A stretch of 64,000 nucleotides of DNA from Paenibacillus sp. BIC5C1. GTDB taxonomy: Bacteria; Bacillota; Bacilli; Paenibacillales; Paenibacillaceae. The stretch spans positions 2,976,001-3,040,000 of the forward strand of contig NZ_CP135922.1 in assembly GCF_032399705.1 (NCBI RefSeq). Reading direction: 5' to 3'. Below are positions 22,347-34,562 of the stretch, piece after piece. The notes under the pieces are model-generated. The model saw only the letters and a list, made by a program, of their open reading frames with translations, made no database searches and was not told the DNA's origin. The translations under genes and the position numbers were made by a program. Position 1 is the stretch's first letter. Each line of letters begins with the position of its first letter.

Positions 22347-22841
22347 TCAAGATGTTGATTTGCCGCGAATTTTGGAACTTAGATCATCAATCTGTTCATC
22401 CAGTACATTTCCTGCTTTGCTTAGAAACCCTGTAATAAGCTCCAGTTCTTCCTCAGTGTAAGTGGAAGCCAGTTTAACCATAGCTGCGTGAAGGGTGAGG
22501 TATGTGCTGCTGACCTCTTCCTTGTTTTCGTACAAAGGCACAATGATGACTTTACGGCGGTCATTGGGGTCATTTTCCCGGCGAACAAAGCCGTTCTTCT
22601 CAAGCCTGTCAATTAATGTCGTGACACTCCCTGTGGCCAGACCGGTAAGTTTTGACAGCTCACCTGCAGTGATTGGACCTTTCTCGCGCAGGATATCCAC
22701 GGATATGAAATCGTTATTGTACAAGCCCAAAGAGGCAGCCACATGCTGCTGATATAAAACGGTTCGTGTACCCAGGCTTCGCATGCGTAACGTAAAATTC
22801 TCCTGTAATTCGGTAGGTTGTTGTTGATGTTCTCTTGACAA
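22347..22841 (-). CDS. MarR-family transcriptional regulator
   Basis: The 164-residue protein has a MarR winged helix (about residues 40-125): NNDFISVDILREKGPITAGELSKLTGLATGSVTTLIDRLEKNGFVRRENDPNDRRKVII. The wing has the canonical DPNDRRKV. It is divergent from a UvrA-like/MFS/SDR operon. The shared region contains an inverted repeat and direct repeats overlapping the operon's promoter. It is probably a drug-responsive repressor of that operon and of itself. Confidence 0.94.
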   Translation of the reverse strand: MSREHQQQPTELQENFTLRMRSLGTRTVLYQQHVAASLGLYNNDFISVDILREKGPITAGELSKLTGLATGSVTTLIDRLEKNGFVRRENDPNDRRKVIIVPLYENKEEVSSTYLTLHAAMVKLASTYTEEELELITGFLSKAGNVLDEQIDDLSSKIRGKSTS

Positions 22842-22868
22842 AAGATAACCCTCCTCTTAAGATGACAT

Positions 22869-22927
22869 ATATCTTGATTATCGAGATATTAGATTAACAA
22901 GATAATAAATTTTGGAGATACTAGATT
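22869..22927. promoter_or_regulatory. Candidate MarR operators
   Basis: A 21-bp inverted repeat with one mismatch (arms ATATCTTGAT at 22869-22878 and ATCGAGATAT at 22880-22889) lies in the divergent region. A 13-bp direct repeat GAGATATTAGATT / GAGATACTAGATT (22883-22895 and 22915-22927) is spaced 32 bp, three helical turns. The second copy reaches the -35 of the downstream promoter. Confidence 0.6.
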
Positions 22928-22954
22928 GACGTATGAATAATTTCAACTTATTTT
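22926..22954 (+). promoter_or_regulatory. Sigma-A-type promoter of the UvrA-like operon
   Basis: TTGACG (22926-22931), 17-bp spacer, TATTTT (22949-22954), about 40 bp before the start codon. The -35 overlaps one of the repeated boxes, fitting repression by the divergent MarR protein. Confidence 0.65.
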
Positions 22955-22993
22955 AACGAACTCTGTACTTATTTGCAAAGGGGACGATCGATT

Positions 22994-25498
22994 TTGAGAG
23001 ACACAATGATGATTAAAGGTGCACGGGAGAACAACCTGAAGAATATTTCACTTTCGATTCCGAAGTATAAATTGGTTGTTTTAACGGGTCCGTCCGGCTC
23101 CGGCAAATCCACGCTGGCAATGGATACCCTTCAGCGAGAATGCCAGAGACAATACATGGAATCGATGGGGTTAACATCGGATTCGATCAGCAAACCAAAA
23201 GTGGAGTCGATCACAGGTCTTTCTCCTTCCATCAGCGTAGGACAGCACATTACTAACCGGAATCCACGCTCAACGGTAGGAACAGTGACAGACATTTACA
23301 CTTACGTTCGTTTCATTTTTTCCAGACTTGGGGAGCGTACATGTCCATCCTGTAACGGCAACATTTCGCCATCGTGGGAAGCGGCTGGTCATCTAACCGA
23401 GGAAGACGAATACATGGGTCATCAGACTATGCATTGCCCGCATTGCAATGTCGAGCTGGAGAAATTGGGTATGTCACACTTTTCGTTCAACAAACCGGAG
23501 GGTGCTTGTGATGTATGTAGTGGACTGGGGCATGTGGCATCAATCAACGAAGCCGCTGTATTCAATCCTGAGCTTAGTGTGCGGGATGGAGGTGTAGCTT
23601 CCTTAAATGGTGTGCATCGGGATATTCAGATCCGAATTCTGGTTGCAGCTGGAAAGCATTTTGGATTCGGATTCGATCCGGATCGGCCATTGAAGGACCT
23701 TGGTGAAATCGACCGTGACTTGCTGTACTACGGCGTCGATAGCGAAGAATTCAAGCAGCATTACCCTAATATCAAGCCGATCCAGGGAACCAAGTTCGAA
23801 GGTGTAATCCCCGGATTGTGGCGACGCTATAAGGAAAAGGAAGGAGAAGGTGGTGGAACGGAAAAAGACGGACGTTTTTTTCATCAACAGCAGTGTCCTG
23901 AATGTCAGGGGGACCGTTTGAAAAAAGAAATTCTGTTGGTAAACGTAGCTGGCGCATCTATCTCCGAGGTTACCAACTGGTCATTCAGTAAAGTGCTGGA
24001 ATGGACGGCAGGACTTCAAGAAGTGATCTTACCCGAGGCACATCATCTGCTTGATCCAATCCTTCATGATCTGCCCACCAAATTGAAGCGCATTATGGAT
24101 GTTGGACTTGGCTATCTCTCCATGGATCGTCAGACCGTAACTTTATCTGGTGGTGAAGCTCAGCGATTACGACTTGCATCGCTTCTGGGCTCTGGTTTAA
24201 CGGGTGTATTGTATATTCTGGACGAACCGACAACAGGGCTTCATCCGAAAGATACCATTGGCCTGATTCGTGTACTTCAGGAGCTTCGTGATCTGGGCAA
24301 TACGATCCTCGTCATTGAACACGATATTGAGATGATGCGTGCTGCCGATCATGTGATCGACATTGGACCTGGTGCTGGAGTCAATGGTGGGATAGTTGTT
24401 GGTGAAGGGAGTCTGGAGGATTTAATGGCAAGTGAACTTTCGGTTACGGGAGCTTATCTGAGAAATGAATCTTTGGCTAGTCCTTCTTATAACCGAAGAA
24501 CAGGTACGGGGCAGCATCTTGCCATCCGGGGAGCGCATTTGCGCAACATCGATATTCCGGTTGTATCTTTTCCATTAGGAACACTGATCTCCGTAACGGG
24601 TGTTTCGGGGTCCGGCAAATCTACGCTTGTATTTGATATCCTTGCACAGGGTATGGAGTCAGGTCAGAAACCAACAGGTTGTGAAGAGATAACAGGTTTG
24701 GAGAACGTCGGTGATATCGTTATTTTTGACCAAACGCCGATGGGCAGAATGCAACGGTCGAATGTTGCCACCTACACCGATGTATTTACGCATCTGCGTC
24801 AGCTATTCGCTGGTTTGCCAGATGCCACAGCACGAAAGCTAACTGCGAAGCACTTCTCGTTCAATACACCCGGAGGGCGTTGTGAAACCTGTCAAGGTCT
24901 TGGGGTATTGTCTGTAGACATGAACTTCCTGCCTGATCTGGAGGTAACTTGTCATGACTGCAAGGGCAGACGGTTCGTGGATGAAGTGTTACAGGTTCAA
25001 TACGAAGGCTTCTCGATATCCGATGTCCTAAATATGTCGGTTGCCGAAAGTCTGCCTGTCTTGAAAAGTCAGACCAAAATCGCCGATCTTGTCGAGATGT
25101 TGTGTGAAGTTGGACTTGGTTACCTCCAGTGGGGTCAATCAGTTAAAACATTGTCAGGCGGTGAGGGACAGCGGATCAGGCTGGCAAAAGAGCTGAGTAA
25201 AAAGACCAAAAAACACACGCTCTATCTGTTGGATGAGCCAACAACCGGCCTTCATCCGTCAGACATCAAGCAACTCCATATTTTGCTGGATAAGCTGGTT
25301 GAGTCGGGGAATACCGTTGTCGTTGTAGAGCACAGTCTGGAATTGATTCGGGAATCCGATTGGGTTATTGACATTGGCCCAGAAGGTGGCGCAGCGGGTG
25401 GCGAACTGGTAGCCGAAGGTACGCCGGAGCAGGTGGCGGAAGTCAGAGTCTCCCATACAGGACAATTTTTGAAGCGTATATTAGCCGAAGGGCTTTAA
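22994..25498 (+). CDS. UvrA2-like ABC ATPase
   Basis: The protein (about 834 residues) has two ABC ATPase halves built as in UvrA. The first Walker A is GPSGSGKST and the second GVSGSGKST; signatures are LSGGEAQR and LSGGEGQR, with Walker B VLYILDEPTTGLHP and LYLLDEPTTGLHP. Two Cys pairs mark each zinc module (CPSC...CPHC and CETCQG...CHDCKG). It is shorter than housekeeping UvrA (about 950 residues), which suggests loss or shrinkage of an inserted domain, as in class II UvrA proteins such as the drug-resistance protein DrrC. TTG 22994 is chosen for AAAGGGGA 8 nt upstream; ATG 23006 is possible. With MarR upstream and an efflux pump downstream, a role in removing DNA-bound drugs is likely (inference). 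Confidence 0.9.
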   Translation: MRDTMMIKGARENNLKNISLSIPKYKLVVLTGPSGSGKSTLAMDTLQRECQRQYMESMGLTSDSISKPKVESITGLSPSISVGQHITNRNPRSTVGTVTDIYTYVRFIFSRLGERTCPSCNGNISPSWEAAGHLTEEDEYMGHQTMHCPHCNVELEKLGMSHFSFNKPEGACDVCSGLGHVASINEAAVFNPELSVRDGGVASLNGVHRDIQIRILVAAGKHFGFGFDPDRPLKDLGEIDRDLLYYGVDSEEFKQHYPNIKPIQGTKFEGVIPGLWRRYKEKEGEGGGTEKDGRFFHQQQCPECQGDRLKKEILLVNVAGASISEVTNWSFSKVLEWTAGLQEVILPEAHHLLDPILHDLPTKLKRIMDVGLGYLSMDRQTVTLSGGEAQRLRLASLLGSGLTGVLYILDEPTTGLHPKDTIGLIRVLQELRDLGNTILVIEHDIEMMRAADHVIDIGPGAGVNGGIVVGEGSLEDLMASELSVTGAYLRNESLASPSYNRRTGTGQHLAIRGAHLRNIDIPVVSFPLGTLISVTGVSGSGKSTLVFDILAQGMESGQKPTGCEEITGLENVGDIVIFDQTPMGRMQRSNVATYTDVFTHLRQLFAGLPDATARKLTAKHFSFNTPGGRCETCQGLGVLSVDMNFLPDLEVTCHDCKGRRFVDEVLQVQYEGFSISDVLNMSVAESLPVLKSQTKIADLVEMLCEVGLGYLQWGQSVKTLSGGEGQRIRLAKELSKKTKKHTLYLLDEPTTGLHPSDIKQLHILLDKLVESGNTVVVVEHSLELIRESDWVIDIGPEGGAAGGELVAEGTPEQVAEVRVSHTGQFLKRILAEGL

Positions 25499-25525
25499 TC
25501 AGAATGGATAAGGGGAAAAATAATC

Positions 25526-27055
25526 ATGGTAAAAAGCAATAAATTAGGCGTTATTCTTGCAGGCTTGCTGCTTGCCATTCTTATGGCTTCGATGGATAAC
25601 ACCATCGTTGCCACTGCAATTGGTACCATCGTAGGTGATCTTGGCGGATTTGATAAATTAATGTGGGTCACCTCTGTCTATATGGTTGCAGAGATGGCGG
25701 GTATGCCGATCTTCGGTAAACTATCGGATATGTATGGGCGCAAGCGATTTTTCATTTTTGGAATCATTGTATTTATGATTGGTTCTGCATTGTGCGGGAC
25801 GGCGGATTCCATCATTCAGCTCAGTATTTATCGTGCGATTCAGGGAATCGGCGGCGGGGCGTTGATGCCGATCGCATTTACCATTATGTTTGATGTCGTT
25901 CCCGCAGACAAACGGGGTAAGGTGGGGGGACTATTCGGTGCAGTCTTTGGTTTATCCAGTATTTTCGGACCCCTTCTCGGAGCCTATCTTACCGATTACA
26001 TTCATTGGTCCTGGATTTTCTATATCAACCTGCCACTTGGTCTGATCGCCTTTGTCATGATTGCATTCTTCTATAAAGAATCCGTAGAGCATTCCAAACA
26101 GAAAATTGACTATTTTGGCGCATTCACACTGGTAGCTTCCATCGTATGCCTCATGTTTGCACTTGAACTTGGAGGCAAGGAATACGCCTGGAATTCCAGC
26201 ATGATCGTGGGTTTGTTTGCTGCGTTCGCCGTGCTGATGACTGCATTTGTGTTCATAGAGCGCCGAGTGGCAGAACCGATTATTACATTTAGCATGTTCA
26301 AAAATCGACTTTATTCCACCAGCAATCTGATGGCCATATTTAGCGGTGCAGCCTTTATTACAGCTTCCATCTATATCCCCATTTATATTCAGGGTGTACT
26401 TGGTGGATCAGCCACCAATTCCGGTCTTGTTCTTCTGCCGATGATGCTCGGATCGGTTGTGACAGCTGCTGGTGGAGGAGCCATGCTTACCAAGCTCAGA
26501 TACCGCTCCATCATGTTACCTACACTCGCGTTGCTGGTTATTGGTATTGCCTTGCTGACAACGTTAACGACAGATTCCTCCCGATTTATGGTGACTATCT
26601 TCATGATTCTGGTTGGTCTGGGCATTGGGTCTTCGTTCTCTGTATTGAGCAATGCAGCCATTCACGGTTTCTCGGCAAGACAGCGTGGTTCGGCCAGTTC
26701 AACACTTAACTTCAATAGGGAACTCGGTATGACGTTGGGAATCACGGTATTTGGTATCGTACAAAGTCACGTATTTACGAGTAAATTGGTCTCCTTCTTT
26801 GGAAATAGTAATGGTAGTGAGCAGGGTGGTGGCGTGAATCTGAGTGATCCTAGCCTAGTCCTAAAACCGGACACTCGTGCTGATATTCCTGCGCCAATGT
26901 TGGATAAGATTACAGAAGCATTGTCCTCATCCATCGTTCATACGTTTGCCTGGGCCATCATTCCGGCAGTTATTGCTCTATTGGCTGCGTGGTTTATGAG
27001 TAAGGAAAAATTCGACCCTGCTTCTGAGTCGGATGAATATTTTGCTTCACACTAG
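25526..27055 (+). CDS. DHA2-family (EmrB/QacA-like) drug efflux MFS transporter
   Basis: The 509-residue membrane protein has 14 predicted helices. It carries DHA2 motifs: LDNT-like SMDNTIVATAIGTI in helix 1, GKLSDMYGRKRFF between helices 2 and 3, AIQGIGGGALMPI, and motif C-like GLSSIFGPLLGAYLTD. Members export cationic dyes, antiseptics and antibiotics using the proton gradient. It starts 27 bp after the UvrA-like gene and is part of the same MarR-controlled operon. Confidence 0.93.
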   Translation: MVKSNKLGVILAGLLLAILMASMDNTIVATAIGTIVGDLGGFDKLMWVTSVYMVAEMAGMPIFGKLSDMYGRKRFFIFGIIVFMIGSALCGTADSIIQLSIYRAIQGIGGGALMPIAFTIMFDVVPADKRGKVGGLFGAVFGLSSIFGPLLGAYLTDYIHWSWIFYINLPLGLIAFVMIAFFYKESVEHSKQKIDYFGAFTLVASIVCLMFALELGGKEYAWNSSMIVGLFAAFAVLMTAFVFIERRVAEPIITFSMFKNRLYSTSNLMAIFSGAAFITASIYIPIYIQGVLGGSATNSGLVLLPMMLGSVVTAAGGGAMLTKLRYRSIMLPTLALLVIGIALLTTLTTDSSRFMVTIFMILVGLGIGSSFSVLSNAAIHGFSARQRGSASSTLNFNRELGMTLGITVFGIVQSHVFTSKLVSFFGNSNGSEQGGGVNLSDPSLVLKPDTRADIPAPMLDKITEALSSSIVHTFAWAIIPAVIALLAAWFMSKEKFDPASESDEYFASH

Positions 27056-27964: not shown

Positions 27965-28064
27965 GTATCCCATAATAAGAAGAGTATTTATTATGAAAAT
28001 AATTCTATATAGTCATCCCAGTAGTTCAGAGATCATGATACAATAAGCAGGCATGCGTCTTTTA

Positions 28065-28235
28065 TCATTTTGTGGTGTCATAGACAATACGCACACCGAG
28101 AGAGCCATAGCTCTCTTCTTTGTAGTGACATTCGGAGCATGTTTTTGTAGCACATAACGCATCACTGTGAACTTGTAATTTTTCGTTACACAGCGGGCAT
28201 TTATTTTCAAAAAGAGTCTTCAACACGTTAAACAT
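28065..28235 (-). CDS. Small Cys-rich (zinc-ribbon-like) protein
   Basis: A 56-residue frame from ATG 28235 to TGA 28065 encodes a protein with CPLC at residues 13-16 and CSEC at 33-36, plus Cys 28. It ends in GSLGVRIVYDTTK. Two CxxC knuckles about 17 residues apart are what a small zinc ribbon needs. The ribosome binding site is weak (GAGTG upstream). It is followed on its strand by the strong terminator at 27922-27964. I do not recognise a named family, and the call rests on the Cys pattern and the terminator position. Confidence 0.55.
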   Translation of the reverse strand: MFNVLKTLFENKCPLCNEKLQVHSDALCATKTCSECHYKEESYGSLGVRIVYDTTK

Positions 28236-28348
28236 GCTTAATCACTCATTTCGGATTAATTTACTTGGTTTTTATTATAGCCGATTATTTTAACTGCGTA
28301 TACTGTTTTTTGCATCTTTTTTATACCGCAAGAAAGGAAGAAAAACCG

Positions 28349-29146
28349 ATGGATACTCTGCTTTTTGTCATCATGTTTATACTGGGTCTGGTCGGTTCCT
28401 TCTTCTCCGGTTTGTTGGGTATTGGTGGAGCCATAATTAATTTCCCGTTGCTGCTGTATGTACCTTCTCTCATGGGACTGGAACCATTCTCGGCACATGA
28501 GGTGTCGTCGATCAGCATGTTTCAGGTGTTTTTTGCCTCACTCGCTGGTGTGGTTGCCTACATTAGGAGAACAAGGAAAGGGGAGAAGAGCGAAGCTCTT
28601 ATTCATAAAGGTCTGGTAGCTTATATGGGCTCCAGTATTCTTGTCGGCAGTCTAATTGGCGGTTTCATATCCGGTCATTTGAATGGAGAAGTCATCAATC
28701 TGATCTATGGCATTCTGGCCATTATTGCGATTGTACTTATGTTGATTCCCGGTAAGGGAACAGAAGGCTCGGCTGGACAGCTGACATTCAACACATATGT
28801 TGCGGCAGGATCGGCTCTCGCCGTGGGGATCATTTCAGGAATTGTTGGTGCGGGTGGTGCTTTTATATTGATTCCGATCATGCTCACCGTGCTTAAGATC
28901 CCTACCCGGACAACCATTGCTTCTTCACTTGCGATCGTGTTCATCTCCGCCATTGGTGGGGTGGTGGGAAAGATTATGGGTGGAGACATTCCGCTGGAGC
29001 CGATTATTTATACGGTTATTGGGAGTCTGCTTGGTGCTTCACTCGGTTCCAAAGTAAGCTCAATGATTAATGTGAGACTGCTTCGGTATGGACTGATGGT
29101 TCTTATTGCCATTACAGCGGTAAAGGTATGGTCTTCGATATTGTAA
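28349..29146 (+). CDS. TSUP (TauE/SafE) family membrane transporter
   Basis: The 265-residue protein has eight predicted helices and two family repeats, each with a Gly-rich motif: FSGLLGIGGAIINFPLLL near the N-terminus and ISGIVGAGGAFILIPIML near the middle. TSUP proteins move sulfite, sulfoacetate or related organosulfur anions across the membrane. ATG 28349 follows AAAGGAAG; an upstream in-frame extension lacks a ribosome binding site. Neighbours do not reveal its substrate. Confidence 0.92.
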   Translation: MDTLLFVIMFILGLVGSFFSGLLGIGGAIINFPLLLYVPSLMGLEPFSAHEVSSISMFQVFFASLAGVVAYIRRTRKGEKSEALIHKGLVAYMGSSILVGSLIGGFISGHLNGEVINLIYGILAIIAIVLMLIPGKGTEGSAGQLTFNTYVAAGSALAVGIISGIVGAGGAFILIPIMLTVLKIPTRTTIASSLAIVFISAIGGVVGKIMGGDIPLEPIIYTVIGSLLGASLGSKVSSMINVRLLRYGLMVLIAITAVKVWSSIL

Positions 29147-29264
29147 AACCACATAGGATTGAAGCGACCATGACGATTTCGTAACCAAACGGATGGAATG
29201 CCGTATAAAGGTTATGAACATGAGGTGGCGAATTTGTTGTTGCATGAATTCACATCAGTTTTCG

Positions 29265-29331
29265 TCCATGGAGCACCCTCAAACTCCTTTCATGGATACA
29301 TGTTTAACATTCTGAGAAGTTGAGGTATCCA
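29265..29331 (+). promoter_or_regulatory. Possible alternative hairpins over the ribosome binding site
   Basis: CATGGA (29291-29296) can pair with upstream TCCATG (29265-29270). Alternatively the overlapping TGGATAC (29293-29299) can pair with GTATCCA (29325-29331), which adjoins the GAGG ribosome binding site of the isoprenoid synthase gene. The two pairings exclude each other, which would allow translation control. Seen only by eye. Confidence 0.3.
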
Positions 29332-29335
29332 TCCT

Positions 29336-31720
29336 ATGAATAACGTACTTACAGATCAGGCTGATGCAGGATATCGGCTGGCTGAGCAGAAGGCAGCTCA
29401 GTATTTTACTTCTCTTCATGAACAACTTCTGAATAACACGTATACAACTGCGCTTACGCAAGATATTCACTTGTGGCAAAAGAAACATATTCAATCTTTT
29501 TCCTGGTTATCTTTTTTATCAACAAGTCGAAAAAAACCGGATTCCCGGGATGCTCATAGATATATCCATTGGCTGAATGTTACAGGCAAACTGGATGATT
29601 ACCTGGACCGCAGTATTTCTTACATTTATATGAGAGATCTGGGCAAAGCACTGGATTCCTCGGACACGCAAGCACGCATTCAGCGTGTTGCTCAGGATAC
29701 CAAAGCGTATTTTATGCGTTCAAATACAACCCATCACAAGGAAAGTCCGGATTATATCAGTCTGGCCGCCTTGTATCGCTGGGCTCAGAAGGAGAACGTG
29801 GAAACAGCCGTTATCTGGGTCATCAGCAAATTAAAAAATGTCGCTTCCAATATCCCCAAAGAACTGGACGCAGAACAGGCACAGCGCAAACTGCTCAAGA
29901 TTATTCTGGGCGTTGTTCTGCATGTGAACGATGATATGAATGATGAGACTCCACAGGCAGAACGTTCCGAGAGGCTAGATGCTGCGATTCGGCTTGGTTA
30001 TTCTTACGGACTGACCTATCCATTTATTGATGACCTGCTCGATTCGCAGGCGTTGACTGCACAAGAGAAGGAGCAGTATTCTCTCTTGATTCGCAATGCG
30101 CTTCTCACCGGGATCGTGCCCGATATCGGCGAATGGAAGGGAGCCAATCTCCAAGTCATTCAATATGTTCACTCCGAGCTTCGTGATGCGTTTGAGTATA
30201 TTAAGAACTACCAGCGCCCTGAGACGCAGCGTACGTTCTTCGAGCAATCTTATGTATTCTTTCAGTCTCAGGAAATAGACCGTGCCAAAAAACTGTCCAA
30301 CGCGAATTATTCCAATGAAGAACTTTATATTCCGATTATTATTAAATCCTCATCCTCCAGACTCATTGTTCGCTCCGTGCTCAGTGCATCTGCGGATGAA
30401 GGGTTTGATCTGCGGACGTTCTACTATGGCATATATAATCAGCTCGCGGACGATTTCGCTGATATGTTTGACGATATGGAGGATGGGGCAGTGACTCCGT
30501 ATACCTACTATCTGAAGTATCGTGACCTGCGGCCTGATCTGATCAATCCGTATGAGCTATACTGGGCGGTTATTTCCTATCTGATTCATGAGGTATACCA
30601 TTCGGATGCGAAGACCCGGGAGGTCATACTGGATCGGGCTATTAATGGTCTAAAGCGTTGTAGAGCGCGTTTGGGTCAAGAACAATACAACGAAGTGATG
30701 AATATCTTTGCCTCCGGACAACCGGAATTCAATCGTCTCATTCAGCAAATGGTACGAAAAGCCGATGATGTTGATTTTCTGGATAAATTGCTGCGGGATC
30801 AGGTCATCCTCCAATTGCAAAATGACAAGCGCGAAAAACAGGATTTTCTGGATACGATTCGTACGGTTCGTGAACAGATTAATATTGAATTACAGATTTC
30901 CAAGCCGGGTGGACTTCCAGAGATGAAAGGAACGCTTATTGATGCAGCGAATTACAGTCTGCAGGGAGATGGAAAACGGCTTAGGCCGATCCTGACCTGG
31001 GTGATGGGTGTACGTGAATATGGACTGCATGAATCGTCAATCATTCCTCTTCTGAGATCACTGGAATACATGCATACCGCATCACTGATCTTTGATGATC
31101 TGCCGACCCAGGATAATGCTTCGACCCGGCGAGGCCGTTCCACCTTACATCAGGTGCATAATAGCGCAACAGCGGAATTAACAGGATTATTTCTCATCCA
31201 AAAGGCCATTGGCGAGCAATCTTCCCTCAATCAATTTGATGCCGCAACTGTGCTTACCCTGATTCAATATTCCGCTGAAAAAGCAGAGGATATGTGTATG
31301 GGACAGGCGATGGATCTGAATGCCAAAGGAAAAACGCTGACTCTGGAACAATTGAACATGATCTGTTTCTACAAAACAGGTATTGCTTTCGAGGCTGCAC
31401 TTGTGATGCCCGCCATTCTGGCTCAGGTGAAGGACGTAGAGATTGAAGCCTTAATAAAGTTTGCGTATCATGCAGGTATTGCCTTTCAAATTAAGGATGA
31501 CCTGCTGGATCTGGAAGGGGATCATCGGATACTCGGTAAGCCGGCAGGTCAGGACGTTAGGAACAACAGTTCAACCTTTGTATCCATTCTGGGTGAAGAT
31601 GGTGCGAAGAAAGAGATGTGGGAGCACTATTGTCTGGCAACCGATGCGCTGAACGAAATGCCAAAGCCAATTTCTTTTCTAAGACATCTGTTGGATTACA
31701 TCATTGGACGGGAGCGGTAA
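29336..31720 (+). CDS. Tandem-domain class I isoprenoid synthase (polyprenyl synthetase fused to a second synthase-like domain)
   Basis: The C-terminal ~290 residues of this 794-residue protein are a clear trans-prenyl diphosphate synthase: GDGKRLRP (544-551), first Asp-rich motif DDLPTQD (587-593), KTG (680-682) and second motif DDLLD (721-725). Typical single-domain enzymes are about 290-320 residues, so about 500 residues are extra. That extra part has the same order of features: a basic RKLLK stretch (about 184-188), DDLLD (232-236), KSSSSR (337-342) and DDFAD (372-376). The distance between Asp motifs is 140 residues, against 134 in the C-terminal domain. I read it as a second, diverged isoprenoid-synthase fold, possibly a terpene synthase or prenyltransferase using the product of the C-terminal domain. 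Product and partners are unknown. Confidence 0.85.
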   Translation: MNNVLTDQADAGYRLAEQKAAQYFTSLHEQLLNNTYTTALTQDIHLWQKKHIQSFSWLSFLSTSRKKPDSRDAHRYIHWLNVTGKLDDYLDRSISYIYMRDLGKALDSSDTQARIQRVAQDTKAYFMRSNTTHHKESPDYISLAALYRWAQKENVETAVIWVISKLKNVASNIPKELDAEQAQRKLLKIILGVVLHVNDDMNDETPQAERSERLDAAIRLGYSYGLTYPFIDDLLDSQALTAQEKEQYSLLIRNALLTGIVPDIGEWKGANLQVIQYVHSELRDAFEYIKNYQRPETQRTFFEQSYVFFQSQEIDRAKKLSNANYSNEELYIPIIIKSSSSRLIVRSVLSASADEGFDLRTFYYGIYNQLADDFADMFDDMEDGAVTPYTYYLKYRDLRPDLINPYELYWAVISYLIHEVYHSDAKTREVILDRAINGLKRCRARLGQEQYNEVMNIFASGQPEFNRLIQQMVRKADDVDFLDKLLRDQVILQLQNDKREKQDFLDTIRTVREQINIELQISKPGGLPEMKGTLIDAANYSLQGDGKRLRPILTWVMGVREYGLHESSIIPLLRSLEYMHTASLIFDDLPTQDNASTRRGRSTLHQVHNSATAELTGLFLIQKAIGEQSSLNQFDAATVLTLIQYSAEKAEDMCMGQAMDLNAKGKTLTLEQLNMICFYKTGIAFEAALVMPAILAQVKDVEIEALIKFAYHAGIAFQIKDDLLDLEGDHRILGKPAGQDVRNNSSTFVSILGEDGAKKEMWEHYCLATDALNEMPKPISFLRHLLDYIIGRER

Positions 31721-31784
31721 AATCGTTCCTGACTAAATCCCATTTCCATGTTCAGCAAGGTTTATATGAAATCAAAAAAAAGTT

Positions 31785-31822
31785 GCCTGGATTCCATACG
31801 AATAGAATCCAGGCCTTGTTTT
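31785..31822 (+). terminator. Intrinsic terminator
   Basis: GCCTGGATTC, a 10-nt loop, GAATCCAGGC, then CTTGTTTTG. It separates the isoprenoid synthase from the hybrid kinase gene. Confidence 0.75.
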
Positions 31823-31922
31823 GCTTTATTGACACAAACTTTTAGAAAATGAGATGTTTCAACAATGGAAAAATCGGGTATTAAGCAAATATTGTGTTTA
31901 TACACCAAAAGGAGAGCTAAAG

Positions 31923-34562
31923 ATGCAGGTTCAAAAGGTCGATCATCACGAATTGTTTGAGCAGATTTATAATCAAGCACCTATTGGGATTGCAATTGTT
32001 GCTCCAACAGGACAGTGGATGAAAGTGAATCCTGCTTTTTGCAGTATGCTGGGTTATACAGCTCAAGAATTAATCCTTCTTCATTACAAGGAGATCACCC
32101 ATGCGGATGATTTTGCACAGGATCTGAAGTACGAACGTGAACTGTGTGAAGGAAAATCACAAGAGTACAGGTACGAAAAGCGTTATATTCAGAAAAACGG
32201 AGACATTTTATGGATATCAATGCATATATCATTGGCTCGAAACGAAGTCAGCGGTGAACCGTTGTATTTTATCTGCCATGTTGTAGATATTACGGATCAT
32301 AAAACAACCGAACTAAAGTTGCTTCAAACGGAAGAAATGTTCAAACTCATTTCCGATAATGCACAGGAAATCATCTATATTGCAACTTTTGATGGCATTT
32401 GTCGTTATTGTTCTCCTTCCATTTATAAGCTGCTTGGTTACACTCCAGAGGAAGTGGTGGGCAATAATAATACCGCCATTTTTCACCCGCAGGACCTGGA
32501 TCGTGTCTCGCAGATCGATTTGAGCACAGGTCATATGTTGAATATGCAGGTTCAGCATAAAGATGGACATAGTCTTTGGTTTGAAACCACTTATAAGGTT
32601 ATTGGGGACTCTGGACAGGAACAACAAATTCTTGCCATTGGTCGGGATATATCGGAGAGAAAGAAACATGAGGAAATTAGTGCAGAAGCTGAACGGATAG
32701 CCATGATCGGCAGTTGGGAGTGGAACATGCTCAATGACCATGTTTCCATGTCTGAGCAGATATTCGAGATTTTCGAAATAGACAACAACAAACTGTATAA
32801 GGGCAGCGATATCTTTGCATTCATGGAACAAGCGGAGGAGCAGCGGTTGAAGGAGTGTATTGAATGGGTGAAAACGGGTCAACCGCTTGATTTTGAATAC
32901 CGGCATCTGGGCTCAAATGGTAAAGAAAAGTATCTTCATCTGCGAGGATTAATTACATTTGATGAATATCAACAACCGATACAGTTAAACGGAACTTTGC
33001 AGGATATTACAGAGCGTAAACTCGTCGAATTCAAACTTCAGGAATCGGTGGAACGTTATACTTCACTCAAAAAATATAATCATGATGCCATCATTTCTTT
33101 TGATATGGACGGCAATATTATAAATGCCAACCCGGTAGCTATGAAAATGACTGGATGCCCGGTTGCGGAAATGATTGGGACAAGTATATGTCGATTTATC
33201 GGACCGTATCATCTTGGACTTATTCTCAATAGCCAGTATGAGATGGCTGAAAAAGAAATCAATGCTGTTCAGCACGTAAATGGTTCTGAGACAGAAGTTT
33301 TGGCAACGCTTGCGCCTATCATTATTAATGAGAAAAACGTAGGATTCTACCTGATTGCCAAGGATATTACGGAACAGAAAAAGCTTCTTGTAGCCAAAGA
33401 GACTGCTGAACGAATGAATAAGGCCAAAAGTGAGTTTTTGGCGATGATGAGTCATGAGATCCGTACACCCATGAACGGCGTGATTGGGATGACGGATTTG
33501 CTTCTGGATACGCCTGGACTTAGCGGAGAACAAAAGGAATACATTGAGATCATTCAAAAGAGCGGGGATTCACTGCTTGCGATTATCAATGATATTCTGG
33601 ACTTTTCCAAAATAGAGTCAGGTAAAACCGATCTGGTGGATGAGCCCTTTGATCTGAAAGAGATTGTGACAGAGACGGTTAAGATCGTAACACCAATGAT
33701 TCGGGAGAAACAGTTGGATCTTCGTTTAAGCCTGGATGACGCCATTCCTGTTCCCTTGTTTGGGGATGCTTACCGTCTAAAACAAGTCCTAACCAACATC
33801 ATTGGTAATGCAGTAAAGTTCACCCCGGAAGGTAGTATTGAGATCGAAGTGAAGGTTATTGGACAAGAATATAATGACGTTCAATTTCAGTTCAAGGTGA
33901 AGGATACAGGGATTGGAATTCCAGTGGAGAAAAGAGAGCATTTATTCGAAGCCTTCTACCAATTGGAGAATTTCATGACACGCAAGCCTCAAGGTACCGG
34001 ACTTGGACTAGCTATCAGCAAAAAGCTTGTAGAGCTTATGCAGGGGGATATCTGGATTGAGGATTCGGACGCTACGGGGACCACATTTATGTTTACAGCG
34101 TCGTTTAAAGCCAGCAACATGGAGGATTTCAACAGATACGATCTACAACAGAAAAAGAATAAAACAGATCAACTTCGAATTCTGATTGCCGAGGACAATG
34201 AGGTGAACCAACTTGTTCTGCGCCGGATGATTGAGAAGAAAGGGCATCTTGTCGATTATGTAGTAAATGGAATCGAGGCAGTGGAAGCTGTCAAACGAAG
34301 TGCGTACGATATTGTGTTCATGGATGTGCACATGCCTAGGCTGAACGGATTCGAAGCGACCAAAGCGATTAAGGAATTGATGCGGCCAGAGGCATGCCCT
34401 TATATTGTTGCGGTTACCGCAAACGCAGTTCGAGGGGATATGGACAAATGTCTGAAGGCTGGAATGGATGCTTATGTAAGCAAACCAATTAAAAGTGAAT
34501 CCATTATGCAAGTGATGGAGGAGTTTTACAAAATAAAGAAATATCCCACTGCATACAATTGA
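31923..34562 (+). CDS. Cytoplasmic multi-PAS hybrid sensor histidine kinase
   Basis: The 879-residue protein has no membrane segment. Four PAS/PAC repeats fill the N-terminus (about 10-490; for example LFEQIYNQAPIGIAIV, FKLISDNAQEIIYIA and YNHDAIISFDMDGNI). HisKA with His 511 in MMSHEIRTPMNGVIG, an ATPase domain (NIIGNAVKFT, DTGIGIP, GTGLGLAI) and a C-terminal receiver with Asp 801 in IVFMDVHMPRLNG follow. ATG 31923 is preceded by AAAGGAG. The receiver has no DNA-binding domain after it, so output passes to another protein or stays within the kinase. No cognate regulator is adjacent, and the PAS ligands are unknown. Confidence 0.94.
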   Translation: MQVQKVDHHELFEQIYNQAPIGIAIVAPTGQWMKVNPAFCSMLGYTAQELILLHYKEITHADDFAQDLKYERELCEGKSQEYRYEKRYIQKNGDILWISMHISLARNEVSGEPLYFICHVVDITDHKTTELKLLQTEEMFKLISDNAQEIIYIATFDGICRYCSPSIYKLLGYTPEEVVGNNNTAIFHPQDLDRVSQIDLSTGHMLNMQVQHKDGHSLWFETTYKVIGDSGQEQQILAIGRDISERKKHEEISAEAERIAMIGSWEWNMLNDHVSMSEQIFEIFEIDNNKLYKGSDIFAFMEQAEEQRLKECIEWVKTGQPLDFEYRHLGSNGKEKYLHLRGLITFDEYQQPIQLNGTLQDITERKLVEFKLQESVERYTSLKKYNHDAIISFDMDGNIINANPVAMKMTGCPVAEMIGTSICRFIGPYHLGLILNSQYEMAEKEINAVQHVNGSETEVLATLAPIIINEKNVGFYLIAKDITEQKKLLVAKETAERMNKAKSEFLAMMSHEIRTPMNGVIGMTDLLLDTPGLSGEQKEYIEIIQKSGDSLLAIINDILDFSKIESGKTDLVDEPFDLKEIVTETVKIVTPMIREKQLDLRLSLDDAIPVPLFGDAYRLKQVLTNIIGNAVKFTPEGSIEIEVKVIGQEYNDVQFQFKVKDTGIGIPVEKREHLFEAFYQLENFMTRKPQGTGLGLAISKKLVELMQGDIWIEDSDATGTTFMFTASFKASNMEDFNRYDLQQKKNKTDQLRILIAEDNEVNQLVLRRMIEKKGHLVDYVVNGIEAVEAVKRSAYDIVFMDVHMPRLNGFEATKAIKELMRPEACPYIVAVTANAVRGDMDKCLKAGMDAYVSKPIKSESIMQVMEEFYKIKKYPTAYN

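Follow-up and report, generated by a model that had tools for sequence, protein, structure and literature searches.

What does the N-terminal half of a bacterial protein do when its C-terminal half is a prenyl diphosphate synthase? The question arises from a gene in a 64,000-nucleotide stretch of Paenibacillus sp. BIC5C1 (contig NZ_CP135922.1, positions 2,976,001 to 3,040,000), hereafter called the window, whose positions serve as coordinates unless stated otherwise; the host genome is a single contig of 7,078,281 bases. The gene fuses an N-terminal half (N-half) to a C-terminal half (C-half), and its annotation as "polyprenyl synthetase" arises because Pfam detects the C-half only. A preliminary description had seen two class I isoprenoid-synthase-like halves in this one bacterial protein, and the predicted folds of both halves bear this out. 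The fusion, the predicted folds and the strict conservation of both metal sites come directly from the computation; both activities, the chain length, the transfer between the halves and the kind of product are what we infer. The fused enzyme is real, conserved and widespread in Paenibacillus and other Bacillota, and apparently unstudied. We regard it as probably, although by no means certainly, a bifunctional isoprenoid enzyme whose C-half builds a prenyl diphosphate and whose N-half ionises it.

All motifs named in the preliminary description lie at the positions given there in the translation of the 794-amino-acid (aa) open reading frame (ORF), with the two Asp motifs 140 residues apart in the N-half and 134 in the C-half. 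The C-half has the features of an E-type prenyl diphosphate synthase, as had been claimed: a Pfam PF00348 match at residues 534-755 (E 2e-48), both Asp motifs, GKRxRP and KT. Conservation was scored in 283 distinct fused sequences, which are the closest relatives and not a random sample; 186 candidates gave 163 distinct sequences, and 120 added from a second list brought the set to 283, with identical copies excluded and minimum lengths of 740 aa for database relatives from the first list, 730 aa for those from the second and 700 aa for locus ORFs. Besides the C-half motif residues given in the table, A582 and S583, directly ahead of the first Asp motif, are the same in 283/283 and suggest a product longer than farnesyl diphosphate (FPP); GKRLRP is the motif that binds isopentenyl diphosphate (IPP). 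Compared to E-type (trans) FPP and geranylgeranyl diphosphate (GGPP) synthases, the C-half is alike in fold and motifs but differs in that position 745 is seldom lysine (3/283) and that the N-half is fused on.

The all-alpha isoprenoid-synthase fold proposed earlier for the N-half was borne out by an AlphaFold2 model of residues 1-493, with a predicted local distance difference test (pLDDT) score of 86.7 and a predicted template modeling (TM) score of 0.87, and by its structure matches. Residues 85-493 were covered by at least one fifth of VIA-align rows, residues 1-84 being barely tested in the fold comparison. The highest query TM score among the 50 Foldseek rows listed was 0.40, for the beta-C25/C30/C35-prene synthase 5yo8; absence of a family from these lists is no evidence against that family. 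The N-half Asp motifs may face one cavity in the predicted structure, as they lie close to where the expected helices end. The joint between the halves is uncertain, because the four whole-protein models other than the best score from 84.9 down to 70.5. For the N-half, the Foldseek hits with the lowest E-values were predicted, uncharacterised proteins from Cedratvirus kamchatka (3e-4; target TM, 0.66) and Pithovirus LCPAC403 (4e-4; target TM, 0.61), a hint from models that giant viruses may carry an isoprenoid-synthase-like fold.

The N-half is under strict conservation at its putative metal site. All 283 relatives keep R184, K185, K188, D232, D233, K337, R342 and Q369, as well as D372, D373, D376 and D380 of the second Asp motif, while D236 and S341 are each kept in 282, even though N-half identity to the query falls as low as 54%. 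Mean identity to the query is 70% for the N-half versus 74% for the C-half, with the N-half lower in 271/282 rows. The K337 motif is likely the counterpart of the KT lysine of synthases, and the basic cluster lies about 48 residues ahead of the first Asp motif, compared to 40 for GKRxRP in the C-half. Five DDxxD strings occur in the N-half (at 87, 199, 232, 372 and 379), a number above chance, given that 2.8% of 2000 composition shuffles contained at least two; those at 87, 199 and 379 were rejected as decoys since they are not conserved, position 91 being D in 128/163 sequences, position 199 D in 72 and E in 91, and position 379 D in 244/283. Residues 1-498 gave no Pfam match better than E 0.1, PF00348 included, and no NCBIfam match, and neither GKRxRP nor an RRG after the first Asp motif was found in the N-half translation.

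The fusion had been thought rare in bacteria, a claim that does not fit its own family, where the N-half query matches 163/295 Paenibacillaceae genomes sampled (11/19 genera); across the phylum, it matches 9/398 genomes (5/266 genera). The listed matches in Paenibacillaceae lie in open frames of 758-875 aa, with room for the C-half and one with an internal stop, these lengths referring to the listed matches, from which further matches and most second matches of five genomes are absent. Eight of the nine phylum matches sit within open frames of 797-841 aa, which have room for the fusion, and the ninth in a frame of 399 aa. The closest named proteins among the matches listed, 96-97% identical, are from Paenibacillus taichungensis, Paenibacillus sp. 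AD87 and P. pabuli, and the fused form is also present in Desulfitobacterium, Desulfosporosinus, Neobacillus, Metabacillus, Peribacillus, Psychrobacillus, Sporosarcina and Clostridium polyendosporum. All named hosts in two lists of relatives, each showing 120 rows, are Bacillota, and most of them form endospores. The fused protein of Desulfitobacterium metallireducens, a host outside Paenibacillaceae, has an N-half 61% identical to that studied here, although no more than 9/398 phylum genomes match; horizontal transfer is possible. A further profile, A2, had no match in this genome and weak matches only inside the fused frames of 3/20 relatives.

The 399-aa match (E 4e-8, 28% identity over residues 222-411) belongs to a standalone family, which comprises 3243 proteins at E ≤ 0.001. 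Two of 120 listed members are named "class 1 isoprenoid biosynthesis enzyme", the remainder being hypothetical or unnamed; a precomputed Pfam domain was found in 0/120, and a Pfam scan of 47 members returned scattered weak families (best E 6e-4, in one member) with PF00348 at 0.06 in one. Hosts include Proteiniborus, Alkaliphilus, Tissierella, Clostridium, Acetobacterium, Acidobacteria, Chloroflexi, KSB1, Aminicenantes and Bacteroidetes, locus names being taken from the best 80 of 248. Profile-profile comparison of the fused and standalone proteins gave a probability of 92% and E 5e-7 over residues 222-391. A hidden Markov model of the standalone family matched the N-half at E 2e-5 (database of 10000); as controls, neither the two other synthases of this genome nor a shuffled N-half was matched, and E was 2.9 for the C-half. 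In one automatic alignment, at 13-18% identity, 18 columns are invariant in 68/68 joint rows, R184, D232, D236, K337, S341, D372, D373, D376 and D380 among them; across the joint alignment, standalone members are 13-19% identical to the protein studied here. The joint structure alignments used 42/121 fused proteins (at least 780 aa, thinned by word similarity) and 26 of the 120 listed standalone members, hand-picked from a thinned set. Homology to the standalone family, both Asp motifs and the lysine included, is confined to about residues 222-396, and the first 220 residues gave no alignment to it. Standalone members share the invariant residues named above with the N-half but have no synthase half. 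In a Rosetta-stone test, a synthase gene stood beside the standalone gene in 0/80 loci (flanks up to 6 kb; standalone ORF itself recovered in 78/80), and recurring neighbours, namely, ABC-ATPase-like, regulator-like and two other groups, were found in at most 9 loci each.

A weak in-register profile match links the second Asp motif of the N-half to that of prenyl diphosphate synthases (E 4e-4, probability 35%). Against a synthase profile built from alternate rows of a 47-row alignment together with two proteins of this genome, hhalign gave probabilities of 35% for the joint N-half profile and 32% for the standalone-family profile, and no significant match for the fused-only N-half profile (1.2%); with the C-half alone as target, the joint N-half profile likewise gave no significant match (5.1%).

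How does this protein compare with known systems? Geosmin synthase is likewise bacterial and carries two class I folds in one chain, but both of its halves are terpene cyclases, whereas here one half is a prenyl diphosphate synthase. Fusicoccadiene synthase is an example of the fungal chimeric terpene synthases (PTTS). These enzymes join an N-terminal class I domain to a C-terminal prenyltransferase domain in one chain, and a 2021 article describes them as unique to fungi (PMC8307374). By predicted folds, the domain order here is the same, but the host is bacterial and the second Asp motif of the N-half is DDxxDxxxD rather than NSE/DTE. The canonical cyclase pair of DDxxD plus NSE/DTE is incomplete, with DDLLD present and DDFADMFDD lacking the S/T and E. 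The earlier view of the N-half as a diverged terpene synthase holds for its class I-like fold, but a second Asp motif of the kind found in prenyl diphosphate synthases means that this half is more than a canonical terpene synthase that has diverged.

Among non-canonical terpene synthases, one article gives DYLDNLxD and DY(F,L,W)IDxxED as the class IB motifs and D(N/D), ND and RXXKD as those of class ID, and reports that structure-guided mining found sequence-elusive non-canonical class I enzymes in actinomycetes (PMC11234867), which makes a further class plausible. The class IB enzymes (YtpB/BalTS, DUF2600) share a class I-type fold with the fused protein, 5yo8 above being one of them, but both of their motifs are absent from the fused protein, no PF10776 row appeared at E ≤ 1, and hhalign against a class IB profile of 3 members was not significant (probability 0.1%). 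A separate DUF2600 (YtpB-type, class IB) gene is present in 295/295 Paenibacillaceae genomes sampled, which rules out replacement of the DUF2600 enzyme by the fused one; in this genome it lies at contig positions 2195062-2196048, outside the window. Among the titles and abstracts listed in searches of mostly open-access literature, none dealt with the fused protein or with a bacterial chimera of a synthase and a terpene synthase, which is weak evidence of absence.

If the bifunctional reading is correct, the C-half would condense IPP with an allylic starter to yield a prenyl diphosphate, probably at least as long as GGPP. In the N-half, DDLLD and DDFADMFDD would hold the Mg2+ that binds the diphosphate of this product, with help from K337 and R184; the N-half would ionise it, then either release a terpene or hand the prenyl cation to an acceptor. 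Our best guess is that the N-half may be a terpene synthase or prenyltransferase supplied in cis; conceivably, the intermediate might be channelled between the halves. The genome carries another two prenyl synthase genes, which look IspA-like and HepT-like by eye, so the fused enzyme is likely specialised.

Other roles for the N-half were weighed against this reading. It could use the C-half product as an aromatic, protein or lipid prenyltransferase with no terpene cyclase activity, which we consider unlikely: class I folds transfer prenyl groups too (ComQ), and no terpene-tailoring genes were recognised by eye nearby and no neighbour is conserved, but neither is any candidate acceptor gene conserved at the locus. 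Somewhat more doubtful is a tandem prenyl diphosphate synthase in which the N-half is a second elongator that lengthens the C-half product. The motif order and helix placement of the N-half mimic those of the C-half, its second Asp motif has the DDxxDxxxD form known from prenyl diphosphate synthases, and the invariant R184/K185/K188 lie roughly at the place of GKRxRP; however, the N-half lacks the GKRxRP and RRG of the IPP site, which favours ionisation without elongation, and R184 alone of the basic cluster is among the residues common to the standalone family.

The least likely rival, which we hold to be improbable, gives the N-half no catalysis of its own but a part in regulation or in setting chain length, comparable to that of the small subunit in heteromeric synthases. 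Some heteromeric prenyl synthases do have an inactive partner, and the N-half is slightly more variable than the C-half; nevertheless, its metal-binding set is kept in the 283 relatives, with D236 the one residue of that set that changes, in a single sequence. This argues against a pseudo-enzyme and disfavours the regulatory pseudo-synthase entertained in the preliminary description.

Upstream of the gene lies a bipartite element that resembles a promoter of extracytoplasmic function (ECF) sigma factors. A relaxed form of its pattern occurs in 41/49 distinct upstream stretches of fused genes versus 0.96 expected in shuffles, with 40 strict sites listed; by identity of the relatives, the counts are 26/27 (0.55 expected) at 80% or more, 11/12 (0.16 expected) at 65-80% and 4/10 (0.25 expected) below 65%. 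Its spacer changes among relatives, and its distance to the start ranges from 64 to 155 bases. From this pattern we infer that the fused gene may be under the control of an ECF-type sigma factor. Genome-wide, the strict element is not enriched (4 sites versus 7 for a reversed control; longer form, 2 versus 2), and therefore no regulon is claimed. A consensus sigma-70 scan around the gene gave no excess over shuffles.

By eye from translations, the 5' neighbour is a TauE/SafE-like exporter ending at 29146, and the 3' neighbour is a PAS-type hybrid kinase starting at 31854; no terpene-tailoring gene was recognised beside the fused gene. A gene cluster was rejected: when ORFs of at least 100 aa from 20 hand-chosen loci (19 from the family and 1 outside) were clustered at 40% identity, the fused gene alone was common to at least 4 loci. 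The hairpin beyond the gene might, as a guess, be its terminator; a terminator scan around the gene found 3 terminator-like sites versus 2.7 expected in shuffles, a chance level, and an Rfam scan of 28000-32500 gave no match. Farther upstream, at 22347-27055, genes for a MarR-like regulator, a UvrA-like ATPase and a major facilitator superfamily transporter follow one another (by eye from translations).

Table. Features of the fused gene and its surroundings in window coordinates
Feature	Position	Strand	Basis
Bipartite promoter-like element GTAACC-N15-CGTAT	29181..29206	+	Recurs upstream of relatives' fused genes
Fused gene	29336..31720	+	ORF, 794 aa; full-length relatives exist
N-half, residues 1-493, non-canonical class I isoprenoid-synthase-like domain	29336..30814	+	Predicted fold
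Basic cluster R184 K185 ... K188	29885..29899	+	Invariant, 283/283 relatives
N-half first Asp motif, DDLLD 232-236 (D232, D233, D236)	30029..30043	+	Conservation
N-half KSSSSR 337-342 (K337, S341, R342)	30344..30361	+	Conservation
N-half second Asp motif, DDFADMFDD 372-380 (DDxxDxxxD)	30449..30475	+	Conservation
Helix 482-518 linking both halves	30779..30889	+	Best whole-protein model, pLDDT 85.9
C-half, residues 499-794, E-type prenyl diphosphate synthase	30830..31717	+	Fold and motifs
GKRLRP 546-551	30971..30988	+	K547, R550 in 283/283
C-half first Asp motif, DDLPTQD 587-593	31094..31114	+	D587, D588, D593 in 283/283
KTG 680-682	31373..31381	+	K680, T681 in 283/283
C-half second Asp motif, DDLLD 721-725	31496..31510	+	D721, D722, D725 in 283/283
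Hairpin between fused gene and next gene	31785..31814	.	T-run on minus-strand side

Tentatively, and with the chances slightly below even, we propose that the N-half belongs, together with its standalone relatives, to an unrecognised non-canonical class of terpene synthases or prenyltransferases (class IB being the non-canonical class compared), with a second Asp motif of the prenyl-diphosphate-synthase type and members in many bacterial phyla. In Bacillota, this class would have become fused to its own substrate supplier as the first bacterial counterpart of the fungal chimeras, possibly turned on via an ECF sigma factor as a means of altering the membrane. If the enzyme is active, it would show that the self-supplying synthase layout, described as fungus-only, evolved in bacteria as well, and the fusion would suggest a likely substrate for the large standalone family, for which our sources state no function. 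Thousands of hidden class I enzymes would thereby become testable via one protein that may need just IPP and dimethylallyl diphosphate.
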